Source: Bradyrhizobium sp. WSM1417 (GTDB lineage Bacteria; Pseudomonadota; Alphaproteobacteria; Rhizobiales; Xanthobacteraceae). From it: a stretch of DNA of 64,000 bases. This document shows, piece after piece, positions 1,981 to 10,730 of the stretch (the stretch's first letter is position 1; every line of letters begins with the position of its first letter). The stretch covers positions 6,807,831 through 6,871,830 of the forward strand of contig NZ_KI911783.1 of the NCBI RefSeq assembly GCF_000515415.1, read 5' to 3'. A program made the translations under genes and the position numbers. Under the pieces are notes generated by a model, which saw only the letters and a program-made list of their open reading frames with translations, was not told where the DNA came from and searched no databases.

Positions 1981-2093
1981 ACGCCGCCTCCCAAGAGCTT
2001 CAACCTGGAGTCCCGAATGTTTGGGTATCCATGGTGGCTGGAGACGGCTAACAGCCGGTTAAGCACAGCGCTTCGGATCGATGTAGCTGCAAA

Positions 2094-2609
2094 TTATCGC
2101 ACCACGTCGAGCCGGACATTGGTGACACCCTTGTCGACCATGCCGAGCGCCTCCGCCGCGGAGGGCGAGATGTCGACCACGCGTCCGCGAACATACGGCC
2201 CGCGATCGTTGATCCTGACCGTGACAAAGCGGCCGGATGAGACATCGGTGACGCGCAGCTTTGTGCCGAACGGCAGGCTGGGATGGGCCGCGGTCAATTC
2301 GTTCTTGTCGAACCGCTCGCCGCTCGCCGTCTCCGTATCCGAATAGAAGCTGGCGAGGCCGTGCGAGACGCTCTGCTTCCCGTCGCCGTCGGGGACGCGC
2401 GCCCGGCTGATCGGACGCGGATGCAGCGCCGCCACCCGGTGCGGGCGCTCGACGGCGGCTTGGCGGTGGGTACCTAGATCGGCCTTCTGGCGGCCGACGG
2501 GCGATTGCGCACACGCCGCAAGCGACGCCGCGCCGATGATGGCGAGCAGTATCCGGCACAGGGTTGCCGGCGAAATCCGGGCAGTTTCGGCACGTGCAAA
2601 TCGAGACAT
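2094..2609 (-). CDS. rlpA: septal ring lytic transglycosylase RlpA family lipoprotein
   Basis: RlpA-family envelope protein of 171 aa. The N-terminus carries a lipoprotein signal with lipobox LAAC (Cys33), so the mature protein should be lipid-anchored in the envelope. Residues about 84-171 form the double-psi beta-barrel domain, with the family motif INDRGPYVRGRVVDIS. RlpA proteins cleave denuded glycan strands at the septum in some bacteria. No SPOR domain follows the barrel, as in short rhizobial RlpA proteins. The ATG at 2609 is preceded by GGAGGGCGCATC, a good ribosome-binding site. The gene is flanked by unrelated small genes. Confidence 0.85.
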   Translation of the reverse strand: MSRFARAETARISPATLCRILLAIIGAASLAACAQSPVGRQKADLGTHRQAAVERPHRVAALHPRPISRARVPDGDGKQSVSHGLASFYSDTETASGERFDKNELTAAHPSLPFGTKLRVTDVSSGRFVTVRINDRGPYVRGRVVDISPSAAEALGMVDKGVTNVRLDVVR

Positions 2610-2703
2610 GATGCGCCCTCCGAACGACCCCGAGTTTCGGTGGGCAATGAGGGCAGAACCTTGTCGGAACGAAAGCGCGCCTGAGGCCGCCGCCGTTTCG
2701 CAT

Positions 2704-2928
2704 TTAGCTGTGACGATTCCACCACACTGGCTTGTCCTGAATCGAGACAGACTCGCGGGATAAGCCCGAGACGACGCGCCAGACGATCGGGCGCGTCTCC
2801 GGGGAAACCTCGCCAGGTTGGGCGCCAGCCCTCGAGAGCCGCGCGAGCTCGCGCCGATAGAGCCACGGCCAGCCGGTTTTCAGGCTGGCGAGAAAGTCGA
2901 GCTCCCGTTGTGTCAGCGTGCACATCAT
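2704..2928 (-). CDS. hypothetical protein, about 74 aa
   Basis: Small protein beginning MMCTLTQRELDFLASLKTG and ending PVWWNRHS. It is rich in Trp and Arg, with no signal peptide or membrane segment, and I do not recognise a family. The ATG at 2928 is chosen because it directly follows the DUF1501 gene (28 bases after its stop) on the same strand; the frame is open further upstream inside that gene. It could be the third gene of the DUF1800-DUF1501 operon. Confidence 0.5.
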   Translation of the reverse strand: MMCTLTQRELDFLASLKTGWPWLYRRELARLSRAGAQPGEVSPETRPIVWRVVSGLSRESVSIQDKPVWWNRHS

Positions 2929-2956
2929 GAACCCATCTGGTTGCAAAGCCGCGTCG

Positions 2957-4207
2957 TCAGCCGACGAGGCCTCCCATCGGTTTGACGTCGGCGCTGCCCG
3001 GGAAGACTGTTTCTGCGAGCACCTTCTCCTCGACACGCAGGTGATCCCTCAGCAGGCCCTTCAACACCGCGCGCAAATCCGTGGTCGGCTTGAGATCGCG
3101 ATCCTCGAAGAGCTGCGCCGGCTTCAGACCCGGCCAGTCCGCGATCACGCGGCCGCCGCTGAGCCCGCCACCGATCAGGAAAGCGACCGTGCCCGTGCCG
3201 TGGTCGGTGCCCTGCGTCCCGTTGATGCGCGCTGTTCGCCCGAACTCGGTGACAACCGCGACGACGGTCTCGCGCCACGCCTCGCCCATGTTGCTCTCGA
3301 TCGCGGCAAAGGCGCCGTCGAGCGCGCCGAGCAGATTGTAGAGCTGGCCCGAGGCCGCGCCCTCGGCGATGTGCGTATCCCAGCCGACGAAGCCCATGGC
3401 GCCGACACGCGGACCGTCGGGCTTTGCGAGATAGCGCGCGGCCGTGCCCGCGGCTTCGGCAAAATAGGCGCGCACGCGCGCGATGCCGGGCGGCGCCAAG
3501 GTCGGATCGTCGGACATCGGATCGCCCACGCCGGGCGCGCCGCCGAGCGAGGCGAGCCTCATGCGGGCCTGGAGCACGCTCGCGAGCTTCGGGTCGGTGT
3601 GCTGGTAGAGATCGAGCAGGCGGTTCTGCGTGTCCTCGCTCGCCGGCAACAATCGCTGCGGCACCCATGTCATGACGGGCGCCGAACCGCGCACCACCAG
3701 CGGCGTCACAGAGCCAATGCCGAGCGCGCGGCTGCCGCGTGGGTCGACAGGCCCGCCGGATTCGAGCGCGAGCAGCGCTCGGTTGAGCCATCCCGAACTC
3801 GTCATGCCTGGCTTGACGAGCCCGCTTTCCAGCACATCCTGGCCGTCGAAATGCGATCGCTCGCGGTAGGGCGTCGCGGTGGCATGGATGATTGCAGCCT
3901 TGCCGCTTTTGTAGAGCCGATGCAGGTTCGGCATCGCCGGATTGAGCGCGAAGAAGGCATCGAGCGGCAGCACCGGCGGCTTGCCGTCCAGCACCAGCGC
4001 GCGATCGCCACGCAAGGAGATCCAGTCGGGATCGCCGACCGGCGCGACCGCGCCAAGGCCGTCGAGCGCGCCGCGCAGCACGATGACCAGCAGGCGCGGA
4101 TCGCGCCCTTCTGCGCGCGCAATCCGCGGCATCTGGCTCCATGCGAATAGTGCGCCGGATCCGACCAGAAGCTCGCGCCGCGTGGGCAAATGATTGACGA
4201 CGCCCAT
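2957..4207 (-). CDS. DUF1501 domain protein, Tat-exported
   Basis: Protein of 416 aa in the DUF1501 family, which is related to the alkaline phosphatase/sulfatase fold. The N-terminus has a twin-arginine signal (TRRELL at residues 9-14, then a hydrophobic stretch ending IARAEG), so it should be folded in the cytoplasm and exported by Tat. Family landmarks include VTEFGRTARINGTQGTDHG near the C-terminal third and FVGWDTH. The ATG at 4207 is preceded by AGGAGGTGAGC, a near-perfect ribosome-binding site, two bases after the stop of the DUF1800 gene. DUF1501 and DUF1800 genes are paired across bacteria; their biochemical role is unknown. Upstream control is discussed under the promoter at 5723-5758. 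Confidence 0.9.
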   Translation of the reverse strand: MGVVNHLPTRRELLVGSGALFAWSQMPRIARAEGRDPRLLVIVLRGALDGLGAVAPVGDPDWISLRGDRALVLDGKPPVLPLDAFFALNPAMPNLHRLYKSGKAAIIHATATPYRERSHFDGQDVLESGLVKPGMTSSGWLNRALLALESGGPVDPRGSRALGIGSVTPLVVRGSAPVMTWVPQRLLPASEDTQNRLLDLYQHTDPKLASVLQARMRLASLGGAPGVGDPMSDDPTLAPPGIARVRAYFAEAAGTAARYLAKPDGPRVGAMGFVGWDTHIAEGAASGQLYNLLGALDGAFAAIESNMGEAWRETVVAVVTEFGRTARINGTQGTDHGTGTVAFLIGGGLSGGRVIADWPGLKPAQLFEDRDLKPTTDLRAVLKGLLRDHLRVEEKVLAETVFPGSADVKPMGGLVG

Positions 4208-4209
4208 GC

Positions 4210-5661
4210 TCACCTCCTCTGAAAATCCGCCGACATGAACAAGAGCGCCAACGCCTGCTGCCGGCTCTCGGCACGGCCGACCGCCTGCTTCACCTCGGGC
4301 GCGATCTCGGATCCGAACACGTCCTCGATGATCGCTTGAGGATCGGCCGTGGCCGCCACGCTCTCGGCAAAATTGTTGGCGATGTCGAGCCGCCGGCCGA
4401 CGCCGTCGATCCAGCTCGCCTCGTCGTCCGGATAGCCCTTGGGCGCGGACGGACGCCACAGCGCCTCGCCGAGCAGCTCCAGGCCGCCGGTGAAGCGGAC
4501 CGGATCAACCGTCGTGATCCCGGTCGCGCGCACCACGCCAACGCCCCACTCGCTGGGACGCTTGAGTTTCGACGTCGGCTCGCGCCAGGCTTCGTCGGAC
4601 GACACCATCGCGATCGCGACTTGCTTGAGATCGCCCTCGGTGTCGCGAAAAGTCTTCGCCATCTGCTCGATCAGCACAGGCGGCGGCTCGTCGGCGACGA
4701 AGTGCCGGGCGAGCTTGGTCGCGACATGGGTCGCGGTGGCCGGATTCGCGGCGAGATCGCGCAGCACCGCACGGCCCTGCTCGACATCTTCCTGTTCGTA
4801 GCGCTTGCCGAGCACGGTCTGCCCGCCGGGCTCGTGCAGCCGCGGATTGAAGGTGAATTCGCCACCGTGCTCGGGATTGTCGCCGGGCGGCACCAGCGTC
4901 CATCCCGTCAGCACATTGGCGAAGCTGATGACGTCGTCCTGAGTGTAGCCGGTCCGCACACCGAGCGTATGCAGCTCCATGATCTCGCGCGCGATGTTCT
5001 CGTTGAGGCCGCGGCTGCGGTTGATGCCGGCGATCGAGTTGGCGCCCATCGAGCCGAGATTGTCGAGATAGAACAGCATCGCCGGGTGGCCCTCGACGGC
5101 CAACAGGAGATCGACGAAGCGGCCGAGCGCATTGGCGCGAACGGCCTCGCGCTCATAGGCGCCGGACATGCTCCGGATCTTGTTGGCCGAGACGCAGAAA
5201 TGGTTGGACCAGAACCACACCAGCCGCTCGGCAAAGCCGATGTCTGCGGAAAGCGCCGCTTCCGTGCGCACCTTGGCTTCCTGCAAATAGATCGGACGCC
5301 CTGGATCGGGAATGGCATCGGCCGCTTGCTTCGCCGCCATCTCGGCGGCGTCCTTGTCCGCTCCCTGCCCTTGCGTCTGGTCTTCCGACATGGTCGGCGT
5401 CGCCGCCACCTGCTGCTTTTTTGCCTGCTGCTGAGCCTGCTTGGCGCGCGCGGCGCGCCGCGCATTGGCATCGGCCACGGTGCGATAGGCCTTTGCGCTG
5501 GAAGGAAGACTCGCGGCGGCGTTCAGGACGAGCGGGCGGTCGAGCTCGGCTATCAGCGCGCCACGCGGGTCGGTCCCGAGAGCCGCGATCGACCCCGGAC
5601 GCGGCCCCATCCCGAAGCGATGAAGTGCGATCACGGCCTCGGCCTTTGCAGAACTGCTCAT
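4210..5661 (-). CDS. DUF1800 domain protein
   Basis: DUF1800-family protein, 483 aa. Typical landmarks are LHRFGMGPRPG near the N-terminus, WFWSNHFCVSANKIR, LYNLGS-type DNLGSMGANS, NENIAREIMELHTLGV, DVISFANVLTGW, and KLARHFVADEPP. A Gln/Lys-rich low-complexity linker occurs around residues 65-100. No clear signal peptide is seen, so export may rely on its Tat-exported DUF1501 partner; this is inference. The start ATG at 5661 is chosen because the family N-terminus begins shortly after; its ribosome-binding site is weak. It is the first gene of the operon and lies about 60 bases from a BlaI-type operator. Confidence 0.9.
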   Translation of the reverse strand: MSSSAKAEAVIALHRFGMGPRPGSIAALGTDPRGALIAELDRPLVLNAAASLPSSAKAYRTVADANARRAARAKQAQQQAKKQQVAATPTMSEDQTQGQGADKDAAEMAAKQAADAIPDPGRPIYLQEAKVRTEAALSADIGFAERLVWFWSNHFCVSANKIRSMSGAYEREAVRANALGRFVDLLLAVEGHPAMLFYLDNLGSMGANSIAGINRSRGLNENIAREIMELHTLGVRTGYTQDDVISFANVLTGWTLVPPGDNPEHGGEFTFNPRLHEPGGQTVLGKRYEQEDVEQGRAVLRDLAANPATATHVATKLARHFVADEPPPVLIEQMAKTFRDTEGDLKQVAIAMVSSDEAWREPTSKLKRPSEWGVGVVRATGITTVDPVRFTGGLELLGEALWRPSAPKGYPDDEASWIDGVGRRLDIANNFAESVAATADPQAIIEDVFGSEIAPEVKQAVGRAESRQQALALLFMSADFQRR

Positions 5662-5722
5662 GGCGAATGCCCAATTCTTTCGAGCCTGCCGACGGCGCCG
5701 GCGTGAAGCTACAAACCGTAAT

Positions 5723-5758
5723 GCTACATATCGTAGCATTCACGGCGTGGGTCTGCAA
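5723..5758 (-). promoter_or_regulatory. promoter with BlaI-type operator for the DUF1800-DUF1501 operon
   Basis: Read on the minus strand, a -35 box TTGCAG (5758-5753), a 17-nt spacer and a -10 box TACGAT (5735-5730) precede DUF1800. A near-perfect palindrome, AATGCTAC-5nt-GTAGCATT at 5720-5740, covers the -10 box. A weaker second half-site pair, GCTAC-5nt-GTA, lies at 5708-5720. The 24 nt at 5723-5746 match the 24 nt at 8767-8790 in front of the blaI-like gene at 20 positions, with the same -35/-10 spacing. This points to repression by the neighbouring BlaI-type protein. It is seen directly in sequence; binding is inferred. Confidence 0.75.
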
Positions 5759-5823
5759 GCGCAGATTGAGCGATCGCCGCCATGAACTCGGGAGCCGCCG
5801 GTCCCGCAGCGGCGGCGCTCGTC

Positions 5824-8343
5824 CTAAAAATTCGGCCCGAGCGCGATCTTGGTGATCGTGCCGTTTCTGACGCCGATGCGCCATTCCGCCGAACCGTTGG
5901 CGAACTGGGCAACATAGATATCGCTGTCGAGCGCGGTGACGCCGCGGAAGGAGACCGCACGCAGCGCACCCAGCCGCGTCAGGATCGCCTGATCGAAGGG
6001 AAGCTGCGCGCGTGTGATGTCGGCGACTTCGGACGTCATGCGTTCGTAGTCCGGCTGTCCCTTGCCGACGCCCTCGATGTAGCGGCGCAGCATCTCCTCG
6101 CCATTGGCAATCGGAACGGCGCGCCGCGCTGCGCGACCCGGACGTGCGCCGAGGTTTGAGGCCTCGACATTGTGAAAGCGCGTTTGCCGACCAGGCACCA
6201 GGATCTCCATGCACCGTCCCGACTTGTCGGCAATCACCCACGGATTGTTCACGGTGGTGGTGGAGGCCCAGGTCATGTTGGGCCTGACGGCGCTCTGCGT
6301 CTTGCGATTGCCGTCGGCATCGAGATTGAAAACCTGGATGTCGTCGCCCATCTCGTTATAGACCATGATCCTGATCGGCGAGGTGCCGGCGCGGCCGCGC
6401 ACGTTCGCCTCCTCAGAGCAAGGCACGATGCCACCGAGCTCGTCGTTGCCGTCGGCTCTGAAGATGACATCGCCGGCTTTGCCGTCGGGCTCGAGCAGCA
6501 GCCGGAATTCGGCCGTGCCGTTCTCGAATTTCGCGCCGTAGATGTCGTAGCCGCCGGGTCCGACGCCGCGGAAGAAGATCGATTCCAGCCCGCCGAGCGC
6601 AACGAAAATCGCGTGCATTTCATTGAGCTGGCGGTGGAGCTTGGCGGCGAGCGGTGCGCTCATGCGCTCGTAGTTCGGCGTGCCGGCGCGCAGATCCTCG
6701 ATCCCGCGCACGATCATCTCCTTGCCGCCGACGGCTGGGACCTGCTCCCTGAAGCGATCGGGGACTTCGGCAAGGCGGCGCGCGAAATCCGCTTCGACGG
6801 CCTGAGCCACCGCCGCATCGACCCGGGCCGCAAGACGGGCGCCGAAAACCGCACTTTGTAGCAACACGCGCGAGACCCTCGACCGCTCGTCGCGCAGGAA
6901 GATCACGAGATGGTCGCCGCGGAAGGAGAAGGCATCAGTGCCCTCGGCAAGGATTTGCGTCGTGCCCTGCCCGGTTTCCTGCAACCAGAGACGGTCGTCA
7001 TCGCGGCGCACGGTGAGCACGCGGTTCGGCGCAATCCTGTACCAGCCGACATATTGATCGAGCGAGGCAGGTTCGGTCGCAGGCGCCGGCATCTCGGCGA
7101 CACGCACCGCGCGCACGTCGCGGCCGTTGAGCCGCAGCATCAGTTCGGAGGAGCGACGTTCCGCATCGAGCGGGAACGTGATCTCGCCCGACGAAGCCAT
7201 GTAGGAGGCGGTGCCGTCACTGCCGACCGTCAGGCGCAGCCGGCGCTGCCCGGTGAGCTGCCCGGAGAGATCGTCACCCTCGCGGAAGACGGCGAACACC
7301 GAGGTCGGGCCCATGGCGTAGAAATTGACGAAGGGGCGGTAATGCTGGGCCGGCACCTCGCCGCTATCCGCAGCGAGCGGCGCAGGCTCCGGGGTGCGAT
7401 AGGCGATCATGCCGGCGGACACGATCACGGCCGGAACGATCGCGGCCGCGATCCACGCCCGCTTGCGCCAGCCGACCGCGACGGGCATCGCGGAGGTCGC
7501 GATGATGCGCTCGACGCGGGCGCGCACGGTCGAGGCCCGTGCCATCGCGAGCTCGAGCGGCCGCGGGCTTACCGTGCTTGCGAAATCAAGCAGGATTTCC
7601 GCATAGGACAGCCGGTCGTCGATCACCTCGATCGCCTCGGCGTCGCTGATGATCTCGGCAAGTTCGGCAAGACGCGCGAGCTGCCACCAGGCGAACGGGC
7701 TGAACCAGAACACCGCGCGATTGAGCGAGGCGAGCAGGAGGATATGGAAATCGCGGTTGGCGACATGCGCGCCCTCATGCGCGAGCACCGCGAGGCGCTT
7801 CTTGGCGTCCCAGCCGGCAAATTGCGGCGGCACCAGAATGGTCGAGCCAAACGTGACGGGACCGCCGACGTCGCGGCTGACGCGCACGTCGGCGTCGACC
7901 AGGTGCGGACCGTTGATCGGCCTTGCCGCGCGCGCGAGGCGCCAGGTCAGACAGAGGCCGATCGCCAGCCGCAGCAGCAACAGGCTGGCGACGGCGAGAT
8001 GGATGATTGTGGCGATCAGCCACCAATTGATCGAGACGCCGCTCTTCGCCGGCGAAACAATTGCCGCGCCGGGCGCGATCGGCTGCATGGGCTGCGGCAT
8101 CTCGAGCATCGAGATATCAGCCGGCAGGACGTCATCCGGCACCGATACCGGCAATGGCAGCCGGGTGATCGTGACCGTCGGCCAATGCATTACTAGAGGC
8201 ATCGCCAGCGATGCCAGCAGCACGACGACCCACGCCGTCATGTGGACGTGCGGATTGCGCACGCGAAACAGGTTGAGGCCGAACCAGACGACGCCTCCCA
8301 GCACAAGGGAGCGCAGCGCCGCCTCCGCCAGAGTTGCGATCAT
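5824..8343 (-). CDS. BlaR1-like M56 family membrane metallopeptidase with VHL-beta-like sensor region
   Basis: An 839-aa relative of BlaR1/MecR1. The N-terminal part has several membrane helices and an M56 zinc protease domain with HEGAH at residues 189-193, followed by a last helix near 350. The periplasmic C-terminus differs from beta-lactam sensors: no penicillin-binding SxxK domain is evident. A DUF3471-like stretch (YVGWYRIAPNRVLTVRRDDD) comes first. Then come two copies of a roughly 90-residue module (about 538-628 and 746-839, both with ..EM...IE......P.YERM...) flanking a VHL-beta-like domain (about 655-720). It overlaps the blaI-like gene by ATGA. Expected role: sense an envelope signal and cleave the repressor. 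Confidence 0.88.
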   Translation of the reverse strand: MIATLAEAALRSLVLGGVVWFGLNLFRVRNPHVHMTAWVVVLLASLAMPLVMHWPTVTITRLPLPVSVPDDVLPADISMLEMPQPMQPIAPGAAIVSPAKSGVSINWWLIATIIHLAVASLLLLRLAIGLCLTWRLARAARPINGPHLVDADVRVSRDVGGPVTFGSTILVPPQFAGWDAKKRLAVLAHEGAHVANRDFHILLLASLNRAVFWFSPFAWWQLARLAELAEIISDAEAIEVIDDRLSYAEILLDFASTVSPRPLELAMARASTVRARVERIIATSAMPVAVGWRKRAWIAAAIVPAVIVSAGMIAYRTPEPAPLAADSGEVPAQHYRPFVNFYAMGPTSVFAVFREGDDLSGQLTGQRRLRLTVGSDGTASYMASSGEITFPLDAERRSSELMLRLNGRDVRAVRVAEMPAPATEPASLDQYVGWYRIAPNRVLTVRRDDDRLWLQETGQGTTQILAEGTDAFSFRGDHLVIFLRDERSRVSRVLLQSAVFGARLAARVDAAVAQAVEADFARRLAEVPDRFREQVPAVGGKEMIVRGIEDLRAGTPNYERMSAPLAAKLHRQLNEMHAIFVALGGLESIFFRGVGPGGYDIYGAKFENGTAEFRLLLEPDGKAGDVIFRADGNDELGGIVPCSEEANVRGRAGTSPIRIMVYNEMGDDIQVFNLDADGNRKTQSAVRPNMTWASTTTVNNPWVIADKSGRCMEILVPGRQTRFHNVEASNLGARPGRAARRAVPIANGEEMLRRYIEGVGKGQPDYERMTSEVADITRAQLPFDQAILTRLGALRAVSFRGVTALDSDIYVAQFANGSAEWRIGVRNGTITKIALGPNF

Positions 8344-8732
8344 TCTTTCTTCACTCCCCTCGCCTTCTTCGCCTTGGCCACCTGGTCGGCCAGTGTGCGC
8401 AACTGCTGCTGGTCGAGCATTGCATTGTCGACCATGCCGACGAGGACCTCCTCCATCGAGCCGTTGCAGAACCAATCGACGATGCGCTGCACCGCCTTGG
8501 CCGCAACCCGCGCGCGCGCTTCGGCTGCGTGGTAGACATAGGTGCGTCCGTCCACCGTGTGCCGAGCATAGCCCTTTTCTTCCAGCCGGCGCAGCACCGT
8601 GCGGACGGTCGATTCCTTCAGCCGACGCGACAGCTTCTCGCGCACCACCTCGGCCGTGACAGGACCATGGGCCCAAACCAGTTGCATGACCTCGTGCTCG
8701 AGATCGCCCAGTTCGGGCAAACGATCGTCCAT
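8340..8732 (-). CDS. blaI: BlaI/MecI/CopY family transcriptional repressor
   Basis: Winged-helix repressor of 130 aa. The family start LPELGDLEHEVMQLVWAHGPVTAEVV is recognisable, with the recognition helix around KESTVRTVLRRLEEKGY and the dimerisation tail containing the region normally cleaved by BlaR1-type proteases. ATG at 8732 was chosen by family length; AAAGGTCAG lies upstream. It is translationally coupled to the M56 protease (4-nt overlap), the standard pairing of this regulatory system. No beta-lactamase or penicillin-binding protein gene is nearby, so the regulated output is likely the adjacent DUF1800-DUF1501 operon and itself. Confidence 0.92.
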   Translation of the reverse strand: MDDRLPELGDLEHEVMQLVWAHGPVTAEVVREKLSRRLKESTVRTVLRRLEEKGYARHTVDGRTYVYHAAEARARVAAKAVQRIVDWFCNGSMEEVLVGMVDNAMLDQQQLRTLADQVAKAKKARGVKKE

Positions 8733-8761
8733 GGCGGCTGACCTTTGTTTCGAATTTTCTT

Positions 8762-8802
8762 GTAGCGCTACGGATCGTCGCATACACGGCCGCGCCGTGC
8801 AA
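8762..8802 (-). promoter_or_regulatory. autoregulated promoter/operator of the blaI-like operon
   Basis: On the minus strand a -35 box TTGCAC (8802-8797), 17-nt spacer and -10 GACGAT (8779-8774) precede the repressor gene. The palindrome-like GCTAC-GGATC-GTCGC lies over the -10 box (8767-8781), and a perfect 10-bp palindrome GTAGCGCTAC sits at 8762-8771. The element matches the DUF1800 promoter at 20 of 24 positions. This is the architecture expected for repressor autoregulation. Confidence 0.72.
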
Positions 8803-9077
8803 CGGGGTTTCTACCAGAAATGGTATCGCGTGCTGACCGAACCGGGGAAATAACGTCTCGGGAGTCGGATCGACTTTCGATCGGGCTAGCGGACTGCCCT
8901 GCCCCTCACCCGGATTGCGCCGGACGATGCTTCACATCGCCGGGGTCAATCCGACCTCTCCCCGCAGAAGAGCGGGGAGAGGTTAGGAGGCAACCTCTCT
9001 CACTCCCTCGCCCCGTTCTTACGGGGAGAGGGTGGGGTGAGGGGCTGCCTCCGCAAATTCAGATCGAATTGTAAGCC
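8803..9077. repeat. intergenic region with rhizobial palindromic repeat
   Basis: No gene was found between the blaI promoter and the malic enzyme gene. The stretch 8955-9048 holds palindromes of the dispersed type CCTCTCCCCGC...GCGGGGAGAGG and a second CCCCGTTCTTACGGGGAGAGG hairpin. The same CTCTCCCGC/GCGGGAGAG core recurs at 10946-10975, 11069-11094 and 60452-60470. Confidence 0.7.
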
Positions 9078-10730
9078 TCAGTACTGCGGCTCGTACATCT
9101 GGGACTGAACCAGCCCCTTCACGTCGTTGGGCGCAGGACCGTCCGCGAGCCCGCGCTGAAAGGCGACGTCGGCGACAGCGGCGGCGATGCGGACCGAGAC
9201 CTCGCGGATGCGCGGCAGCGCCGGGTAGAGGCTGCCTTGCGCGAGATCGTCCTTGCCGACGCAATCCGCGAGCGTATGGGCGGCCGCCATGAACATCTCG
9301 TCCGTTACCAGCCGCGAGCGGCTGGCGATCACGCCGAGGCCGACGCCCGGGAAGATGTAGGAGTTGTTGCCCTGGCGCGGCACGAAGGTGCGGCCGTTGA
9401 GCTTGACCGGGTCATACGGACTGCCGCAGGCAAACAGCGCGCGGCCGCCGGTGTAGCGGTAGGCGTCCTCCGCCGAGCATTCGGCCTTCGAGGTCGGATT
9501 GGAGAGCGCGAACACGATCGGCTGTTCGTTGAGCTCGGCCATCGCCTTGAGCACGTCGGGCGTGAAGGCGCCGCCGACCGCGGCAACACCGATGATCGCC
9601 GTCGGCTTCAGCGTCCTGATCGCGGTGAGGAAGTCGGCGATCGGCGCCTGGTCGGCATGGGCATAACGGAGCTTGTGACCGGACAGGCCTTCACGGCCGC
9701 CGACGACGAGGCCGCGGGAATCCACCAGCCAGTTGCGGCGGAGCGCTTCCGGCTCGGAGGCACCTTCCGCCATCATCGCGGACGTCACGAGATCGGCGAT
9801 GCCGGTCGCGGCCTCGCCCGCGCCGAGGAACAGGATGCGCTGATCCTTCAGCTTGCCGCCGTTGATGCGAAGCGCCGAAAACAGGCCGGCGAGCGCCACC
9901 GCAGCCGTGCCCTGGATGTCGTCGTTGAAGACGCAGGCCTCATCGCGGTATTTATGCAGCAGCTTGAACGCTGAATGATTCGCGAAATCCTCGAACTGGA
10001 TCAGCACACCCGGAAAGGTCTTACGCGCGGCGACCATGAACTCGTCGACGAAGCTATCATAGGCCTCGCCCGTGAGCCGCCGCTCGCGCAAGCCGAGATA
10101 ATATGGATCCTTCAAGAGCTCTTCGTTGTTGGTGCCGACGTCGAGCACGATCGGCAGGCACGTTTCGGGATGCACGCCGGCGCAGGCGGAATAGAGCGAG
10201 AGTTTTCCGACTGGAATGCCCATGCCGTTGGCGCCGAGATCGCCGAGGCCGAGGATGCGCTCGCCATCGGTAACGACGATCAGCTTGGCCGGATAGGGCC
10301 AGTTCTTCAGGATCTCGGCGATCTGGCCGCGATCGCGCGAGGAAATGAACATGCCGCGCGGCCGCTGGAAGATCAGGCCGTATTTCTGGCAGGCGAGCCC
10401 GACCGTTGGCGTGTAGATGATCGGCTGGATCTCGTCGATATTGTCGACGACGACGCGGAAGAACAGCGCCTCGTTGCGGTCGTGCAAGGCATTCAGCGCG
10501 ACGTATTTTTCGAGATCGGTCGGCAGCGTGCGCAGATTGACGAGCACCCGCTCGACCTGGGTCTCCATCGTCAGCACGCAAGGCGGAAGCAAGCCGCGCA
10601 GGCCGAGCGCATCGCGCTCCTTCGCGGTGAAGGCGGTGCCCTTGTTGAGCAGGGGATCGCGCAGCAGCGCCATGCCGTGCACGGAATCGGACGATGTCGA
10701 ATGGGCGCGGACCCGAGCAGGTCTATTCAC
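9078..10730 (-). CDS. malic enzyme (oxaloacetate-decarboxylating), large eukaryote-like type
   Basis: Malic enzyme of 550 aa, converting malate to pyruvate and CO2 with NAD(P). It belongs to the long SfcA/MaeA type rather than the phosphotransacetylase-fused MaeB type. Landmarks are LLNKGTAFTAKERDALGLRGLLPP, IIYTPTVGLACQKYG, VVTDGERILGLGDLGANGMGIPVGK, FEDFANHSAFKLL, FNDDIQGTAAVALAG, the Rossmann motif FLGAGEAATGIA and ALSNPTSKAECSAEDAY. In rhizobia malic enzymes feed acetyl-CoA synthesis from C4 acids. The GTG start at 10730 is preceded by GGGGGAATTC. The cofactor preference cannot be settled here. The gene stands alone between two repeat-containing spacers. Confidence 0.93.
   Translation of the reverse strand: MNRPARVRAHSTSSDSVHGMALLRDPLLNKGTAFTAKERDALGLRGLLPPCVLTMETQVERVLVNLRTLPTDLEKYVALNALHDRNEALFFRVVVDNIDEIQPIIYTPTVGLACQKYGLIFQRPRGMFISSRDRGQIAEILKNWPYPAKLIVVTDGERILGLGDLGANGMGIPVGKLSLYSACAGVHPETCLPIVLDVGTNNEELLKDPYYLGLRERRLTGEAYDSFVDEFMVAARKTFPGVLIQFEDFANHSAFKLLHKYRDEACVFNDDIQGTAAVALAGLFSALRINGGKLKDQRILFLGAGEAATGIADLVTSAMMAEGASEPEALRRNWLVDSRGLVVGGREGLSGHKLRYAHADQAPIADFLTAIRTLKPTAIIGVAAVGGAFTPDVLKAMAELNEQPIVFALSNPTSKAECSAEDAYRYTGGRALFACGSPYDPVKLNGRTFVPRQGNNSYIFPGVGLGVIASRSRLVTDEMFMAAAHTLADCVGKDDLAQGSLYPALPRIREVSVRIAAAVADVAFQRGLADGPAPNDVKGLVQSQMYEPQY

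Follow-up and report, generated by a model that had tools for sequence, protein, structure and literature searches.

What does a BlaI-type repressor control in a root-nodule bacterium, and to what signal does it answer? The question is raised by a stretch of 64,000 nucleotides from Bradyrhizobium sp. WSM1417, which I will call the window (positions 6,807,831 to 6,871,830 of the one contig that makes up the 8.05-Mb genome; coordinates below are those of the window). Its minus strand encodes BlaI and a BlaR1-type membrane metalloprotease of family M56 and, next to them, proteins of families DUF1800 and DUF1501. A first-pass annotation, made from the sequence alone, proposed that the repressor governs both its own operon and that of DUF1800 and DUF1501. 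From the comparison of promoters described here, BlaI is very likely the common repressor of the two operons, as judged by an operator that both promoters carry.

The DUF1800 operator (5708-5737, minus strand) consists of two abutting dyads. The first had been described as a nearly perfect palindrome; a palindrome it is, and the reservation can be dropped, as GCTAC-N5-GTAGC is exact at 5723-5737 and the symmetry reaches 8-bp arms, AATGCTAC-N5-GTAGCATT. The second, GCTAC-N5-GTAAT on the plus strand at 5708-5722, abuts the first, and the whole element therefore extends over 5708-5737, reading GCTAC-N5-GTAGC-ATTAC-N5-GTAGC on the gene strand. The blaI operator (8762-8781, minus strand) is made up of a dyad with one mismatch, GCTAC-N5-GTCGC at 8767-8781, and a half-site, GTAGC at 8762-8766 (GCTAC on the gene strand). 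The surrounding promoters, also on the minus strand, have the layout claimed for them: a -35-like hexamer TTGCAC (8797-8802), 17 nt and a -10-like hexamer GACGAT (8774-8779) at blaI, and TTGCAG (5753-5758, its TTG kept in the consensus of relatives), 17 nt and TACGAT (5730-5735) at DUF1800, both -10-like hexamers lying within the operators. The identity of 20 bases in 24 between 5723-5746 and 8767-8790 was likewise reproduced.

The 10-base core GCTACN5GTAGC is by itself no evidence, since about nine copies would be expected in the genome from its base composition and one exact copy is observed. For the extended palindrome, with its 16 fixed bases, about 0.0003 copies per genome are expected. 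For the composite operator I used the 21-base pattern TGYKACN5GTARCRYTAC, which a search for further copies found at two exact sites in the genome, just the blaI and DUF1800 promoters, and at no site with one mismatch (chance would give about 0.05 sites of the first kind and 2.3 of the second per genome). Weaker sites were sought in this genome with the two-dyad pattern only; at three or fewer mismatches it is exact at DUF1800 alone and recurs at one other place, with three mismatches. Reversed patterns, used as controls, gave many matches, in this genome more than the core, composite and two-dyad patterns themselves; they were taken to be codon-rich, and the expectations from base composition that were used instead ignore codon structure. 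The regulon in this genome is probably just the blaI-M56 and DUF1800 operons. A beta-lactamase or PBP2a gene is not among the targets marked by composite sites at one mismatch or fewer. The genome contains a second DUF1800 paralogue (G000:C1:7852512-7854065), which was considered as an additional target and rejected, no site at two or fewer mismatches being present in the stretch fetched around it (L184).

The operator was then compared across 146 Bradyrhizobium genomes, in 63 of which BlaI finds a match (E ≤1e-8) and in 83 of which it does not. Exact composite sites occur in 56 of the 63 and in none of the 83. Seven genomes have a match to BlaI and lack an exact site: G012, whose BlaI is 31% identical to that of the window; G037, G056, G073 and G113 (63-66% identical) and G130 (L065), all five with one-mismatch sites; and G077. 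Sixty loci from 60 genomes were examined more closely, leaving out G012 and, in G089, the contig that carries blaI. Among 60 blaI promoters (the window and 59 loci), the composite pattern is found with zero, one and two mismatches in 51, 7 and 2 cases; the locus of G077 (L104), where the blaI site has three mismatches, was treated apart. The adjacent DUF1800 promoters number 41 (the window and 40 loci), and the pattern is exact in 40, the site in L104 again having three mismatches. It is also exact at three further DUF1800 orthologues, in G064, G046 and G089 (L171, L172, L183). Conservation upstream of DUF1800, on which the first-pass annotation had staked its proposal, is thus borne out at 43 of 44 promoters (among the matches listed), the exception being in the genome whose blaI frame is interrupted. 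The DUF1800 operon of G064 is not adjacent to blaI; it lies about 0.4 Mb away if the contig is circular, with no assembly gap on the DUF1800 side and one on the blaI side.

Alignment locates the conservation within the operator. In 40 DUF1800 promoters the two arms of the first dyad reach 1.85 and 2.0 bits per base, against 0.8 in the spacer between them and 0.4-0.8 in the flanks; the corresponding values in 55 blaI promoters are 1.88 and 1.94 for the arms, 1.1 for the spacer and 0.4-1.0 for the flanks. The RYTAC half-site has 1.66 and 1.80 bits per base in the two promoter sets. Beyond it the sets part: the second right arm has 1.62 bits at DUF1800 (with 0.77 in the second spacer) as against 0.36, that is, no conservation, at blaI, and a full second dyad is thus a mark of DUF1800 promoters. 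The full GTARC is found there in 32 of 41 cases, and at least three of its five bases in 40 of 41.

The genes themselves keep company with BlaI. Each of the 44 DUF1800 orthologues (≥72% identity) among the matches listed comes from a genome that has BlaI. A second family of DUF1800 proteins (about 45-53% identity) is listed in many genomes, BlaI present or not, and some DUF1800 match was found in at least 136 of the 146 genomes, among the matches listed. Hypergeometric values for such co-occurrence assume independent genomes, which these are not, and were not used as proof.

What belongs together can be seen from genomes in which it is missing. Against the corresponding site in G142 (L257), whose main flanking blocks are 93-97% identical to the window, homology ends at 2751 and restarts at 8993, thereby defining a 6.2-kb cassette, 2752-8992. 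It comprises, all on the minus strand, blaI (8340-8732), the M56 gene (5824-8343), the DUF1800 gene (4210-5661), the DUF1501 gene (2957-4207), the conserved part of a small open reading frame (ORF; 2704-2928) and both operators. It is flanked by rlpA (2094-2609, minus strand), beyond the small ORF, and by the malic enzyme gene (9078-10730), upstream of blaI. The set of empty sites examined consists of all 25 BlaI-less genomes with an rlpA at least 82% identical, together with G056, where the 63% identical BlaI is elsewhere; the other 58 BlaI-less genomes fall outside the set, and one locus (L261) ended early at a contig end, leaving 25 that are informative. All 25 are empty sites, the malic enzyme gene ending 166-444 bp before rlpA, with no match to BlaI, M56, DUF1800, DUF1501 or the small ORF and no operator at two or fewer mismatches.

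The small ORF is the third gene of the DUF1800 operon, starting 28 bp past the DUF1501 stop. It encodes about 55 amino acids in most relatives and 74 in the window, because the usual stop is absent there. It was found in 45 of the 60 relatives' loci, including 34 of the 40 with DUF1800 (some of the misses are loci that end first). Its variability by codon position is 0.17/0.13/0.30, and the corresponding figure for the 33 nt upstream is about 0.6 (47 sequences, of which one is a duplicate). Ten blaI loci with no match to DUF1800 or DUF1501 (L055, L056, L058, L061, L065, L071, L073, L074, L077 and L095) have the operator, with zero to two mismatches, before the small ORF and rlpA, and a metagenome-assembled genome (MAG) of Tardiphaga combines blaI and M56 with an exact operator and a small-ORF homologue. 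Since the operator stays before the small ORF where DUF1800 and DUF1501 are lacking, the small protein looks like a core target, with DUF1800 and DUF1501 sitting between operator and small ORF in most species.

Operators elsewhere extend the picture. Beyond the cassette and DUF1800, 11 exact sites were found across the 146 genomes: four before a gene for a 643-amino-acid S9 peptidase; two before a serine hydrolase of the beta-lactamase family (PF00144); two before a putative MA-clan metallopeptidase (its Pfam score under the cut-off), one of the two also having a PF00144 gene beside it; two close together in G145, with no clear target; and one close to a gene in G021 that, read by eye, resembles recA. 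About three exact sites would be expected at random in 63 genomes, and some of the 11 may therefore be due to chance. The two in G145 (L178) are 459 bp apart; a LanC-like gene is close to one of them, and the other precedes a short ORF whose start resembles a signal peptide. The S9 peptidase (E ≤1e-180) occurs in eight of the 146 genomes, all with BlaI, and in seven the operator lies 32-62 bp upstream at one mismatch or fewer; the eighth gene (G097), without an operator of its own, starts about 40 bp behind DUF1501. Orthologues of the PF00144 hydrolase (E ≤1e-120) occur in five genomes, again all with BlaI. In G093 (L090), where the locus has no match to DUF1800 or DUF1501, the second operator of the cassette precedes a PF00144 hydrolase gene (minus strand, 2046-3338). 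In some relatives, then, the same repressor seems to have acquired S9 peptidase genes, beta-lactamase-family hydrolases or putative metallopeptidases as further targets, and the first-pass view of a system with no beta-lactamase as target holds for the window's genome and has to be qualified for these few relatives.

Outside the genus, an exact site stands at the blaI promoter in Tardiphaga (BlaI 82% identical) and in G329 and the Solibacter, Rhodospirillaceae and Proteobacteria MAGs (62-66%); a relative at 48% has a site with one mismatch, and relatives at 33-37% (L253, L254) have none at one mismatch or fewer. The Rhodospirillaceae and Proteobacteria MAGs have a second exact site, where the neighbouring upstream gene begins (L249, 5968-5999; L250, 5945-5980); in L249 this gene encodes a putative TonB-receptor-like protein of 635 amino acids (read by eye). 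A BlaI 95% identical to that of the window is found in a record titled Frankia sp. RB7 (L226), which is probably misnamed.

The presumed regulator is a protein of 130 amino acids spanned by a Penicillinase_R winged-helix domain (PF03965, residues 8-118, 100.5 bits against a cut-off of 22.6), the single such match in the genome; a sequence search finds among its structural relatives in the PDB the repressors BlaI (1p6r) and MecI (1okr, 1sax). A CopY/TcrY type of copper repressor was considered and rejected: the CopY model gives 72 bits against a cut-off of 122, and the protein has a single cysteine. The start codon of the M56 gene overlaps the blaI stop and the DUF1800 and DUF1501 genes are adjacent, from which two operons are likely. 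DUF1800, first in the second operon, has 483 amino acids (PF08811, 388 bits); DUF1501 (PF07394, 100 bits) has an N-terminus that resembles a twin-arginine translocation (Tat) signal, TRRELLVGSGALFAW...ARAEG, as read by eye. The description of this operon as secreted therefore stands for DUF1501, and not for DUF1800, where no signal peptide is evident at the N-terminus on inspection.

Control of both operons by a BlaI-type protein is supported by the single Penicillinase_R protein, the two composite sites, the conserved arms and the confinement of exact sites to genomes with BlaI. In the proposed mechanism a BlaI homodimer would bind the TGYKAC-N5-GTARC dyad together with the adjacent RYTAC half-site or second dyad. 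Bound there, it would cover the -10 boxes of the blaI-M56 and DUF1800-DUF1501-small ORF promoters and block both. Some periplasmic signal would activate M56, BlaI would be inactivated, and the two operons would come on together.

Several observations weigh against this scheme, or against parts of it. Since its genes and operators are passed on together in a single cassette, the co-occurrence of blaI, DUF1800 and operator there is not independent evidence. The window's own blaI promoter lacks the second dyad and has a mismatch in the first, and in the aligned blaI promoters the second spacer is fairly well conserved (1.41 bits) though the arm that follows it is not. The most divergent BlaI proteins of the genus (63-66% identical; L105-L108) go with one-mismatch sites and no DUF1800 at the locus. 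One locus without DUF1800 (L092) has no operator before its small-ORF remnant, and only two of the five PF00144 orthologues have an operator, the other three having none. M56 is evidently not always needed, since blaI is kept with only pieces of M56 in L092 and L095 and with no M56 match in the stretch fetched as L097, where transporter-like genes follow; L095 nevertheless retains the operators of blaI and the small ORF. Finally, the interrupted blaI and three-mismatch operators of G077 may represent decay or a read error. In that genome the blaI match is split in two, with a change of frame near codon 40, and the two operators of the cassette share a junction one base shorter, GTAGCATAC, while the operator of its S9 peptidase gene (L187) retains GTAGCGTTAC.

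Could the sites serve another purpose? Both operators cover a -10-like box, and a site over the -10 box normally blocks RNA polymerase. This counts against the idea, which I consider improbable, that BlaI binds both sites as an activator, or activates one promoter and represses the other. That idea can draw on the second full dyad of the DUF1800 operator, which the blaI operator does not have, and on a precedent in Synechocystis, where PetR represses petE and activates petJ, according to the available part of a commentary (PMC7896320) on the work of Garcia-Canas et al. (2021).

Two further explanations would take BlaI out of the matter. The palindrome might be the target of some other regulator: binding by BlaI is a prediction from sequence, and many regulators use 15-bp dyads. 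Such a regulator would have to follow BlaI closely, as exact sites are limited to genomes with BlaI (56 of 63 against 0 of 83), are also found at the blaI promoters in Tardiphaga, in the Solibacter, Rhodospirillaceae and Proteobacteria MAGs and in G329, and have no counterpart at two or fewer mismatches in the 25 informative loci without the cassette; this makes the proposal very improbable. Or the similarity might have no regulatory meaning, reflecting a likeness of promoters or a recent promoter duplication. The two promoters do have -35, spacing and -10 in common, yet the arms are fixed across dozens of species in spite of divergence in spacer and flanks, and the element also precedes unrelated genes (S9 peptidase, PF00144 hydrolase, putative metallopeptidases, a TonB-receptor-like gene), so that this explanation is scarcely credible. 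Repression of both operons by BlaI is the reading I retain.

What would release BlaI? The M56 protein (839 amino acids, with DUF3471 and more C-terminal domains) has in its N-terminal part the features of BlaR1, a membrane domain and the HExxH of a zinc metalloprotease, here in the form HEGAH. By analogy with BlaR1 and PetP, and from synteny, release of BlaI through proteolysis by M56 is reasonably probable. The resemblance to BlaR1 in a PDB profile search is confined to the protease part, and the NCBIfam model blaR1_generic gives 33.5 bits against a cut-off of 400. No Pfam domain of the penicillin sensor related to class D beta-lactamases is reported in M56 at E ≤10, and the S[TA]xK motif is absent from its sequence. 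A structural model of the C-terminal part has a beta-barrel resembling the C-terminal domain of a D-aminopeptidase and a sandwich resembling the beta domain of VHL (residues 421-508 and 646-731), the sandwich being without sequence support. Because the penicillin sensor is missing, the signal is likely to be something other than a beta-lactam. One may speculate further, and with considerable doubt, that the cassette is a self-contained signalling island, in which an M56 protein with a periplasmic sensor unlike that of BlaR1 would release BlaI and induce an envelope system of DUF1800, DUF1501 and the small protein, along with lineage-specific peptidases and beta-lactamase-family hydrolases, the ligand being a peptide, perhaps one with D-residues or hydroxyproline, and not a beta-lactam. 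If true, this would for the first time give access to the regulation of the DUF1800/DUF1501 pair.

The families DUF1800 and DUF1501 are widespread and occur as a pair, and the predicted repressor, operator and protease would offer a direct means of turning the pair on and off and of seeking its signal. The species-variable regulon around a fixed core shows how a BlaI/M56 pair can be connected to envelope genes outside resistance, and in Bradyrhizobium the DNA switch is kept across the genus, apparently on envelope genes and not on antibiotic resistance.

How does the system compare with those already known? It resembles BlaI/BlaR1 and MecI/MecR1 of staphylococci and Bacillus licheniformis in its Penicillinase_R repressor, in the M56 protein of the same operon, in a palindrome over the promoter and in the expected autoregulation, and differs from them in that no blaZ or mecA target was found and in that M56 is without the penicillin-binding sensor domain. 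The TAC and GTA half-sites of the classical bla and mec operators are 4 nt apart; those described here are separated by 5 nt.

A BlaR1/BlaI-type system with no beta-lactamase, and with DUF1800 and DUF1501 as target, had been put forward as undescribed; as regards the missing beta-lactamase this claim was too wide. PetR/PetP of Synechocystis is such a pair, a BlaI-like regulator and a BlaR1-like protease with a very small regulon and no beta-lactamase, the likeness being one of description. Its targets are petE and petJ and its cue is copper, and DUF1800 and DUF1501 are unmentioned in the available part of the commentary (PMC7896320). A bacterial chitin synthase has as neighbours DUF1800 and DUF1501, a conserved pair in a predicted operon; the accessible portion of that study is silent on control by BlaI or M56, and it describes a twin-arginine motif in DUF1501, with which the Tat-like N-terminus in the window agrees (PMC5122149). 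DUF1501 is called uncharacterised in the part seen of another paper (PMC4452313), and the open-access literature, examined in part, yielded neither a function nor a regulator for the pair. Nor was a report of BlaI control of DUF1800 or DUF1501 found in the open-access literature, checked largely short of full text. BlaI targets other than beta-lactamase and the DUF1800-DUF1501 operon are thus known separately, and their link was not found in the literature searched.

Targets beyond beta-lactamase are also known in Mycobacterium tuberculosis, where those of BlaI (Rv1846c) include the Rv1303-ATP synthase operon and ftsQ; that repressor differs from the one considered here in that it also represses blaC and has a different regulon (PMC12565901, as far as available). 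Two regulators of Clostridium thermocellum, BlaI_0696 and BlaI_1845, have small regulons and autoregulation, with a half-site GTCTAT/GACTAT and other targets, in the portion of that work at hand (PMC8457756). The operators of BlaI_0696 consist of inverted repeats with a gap of five nucleotides, and each target has two pairs of them (PMC8457756, same portion); the operators described here are like them in their 5-nt spacing and their pairing at targets, and unlike them in half-site sequence and in the genes they precede.

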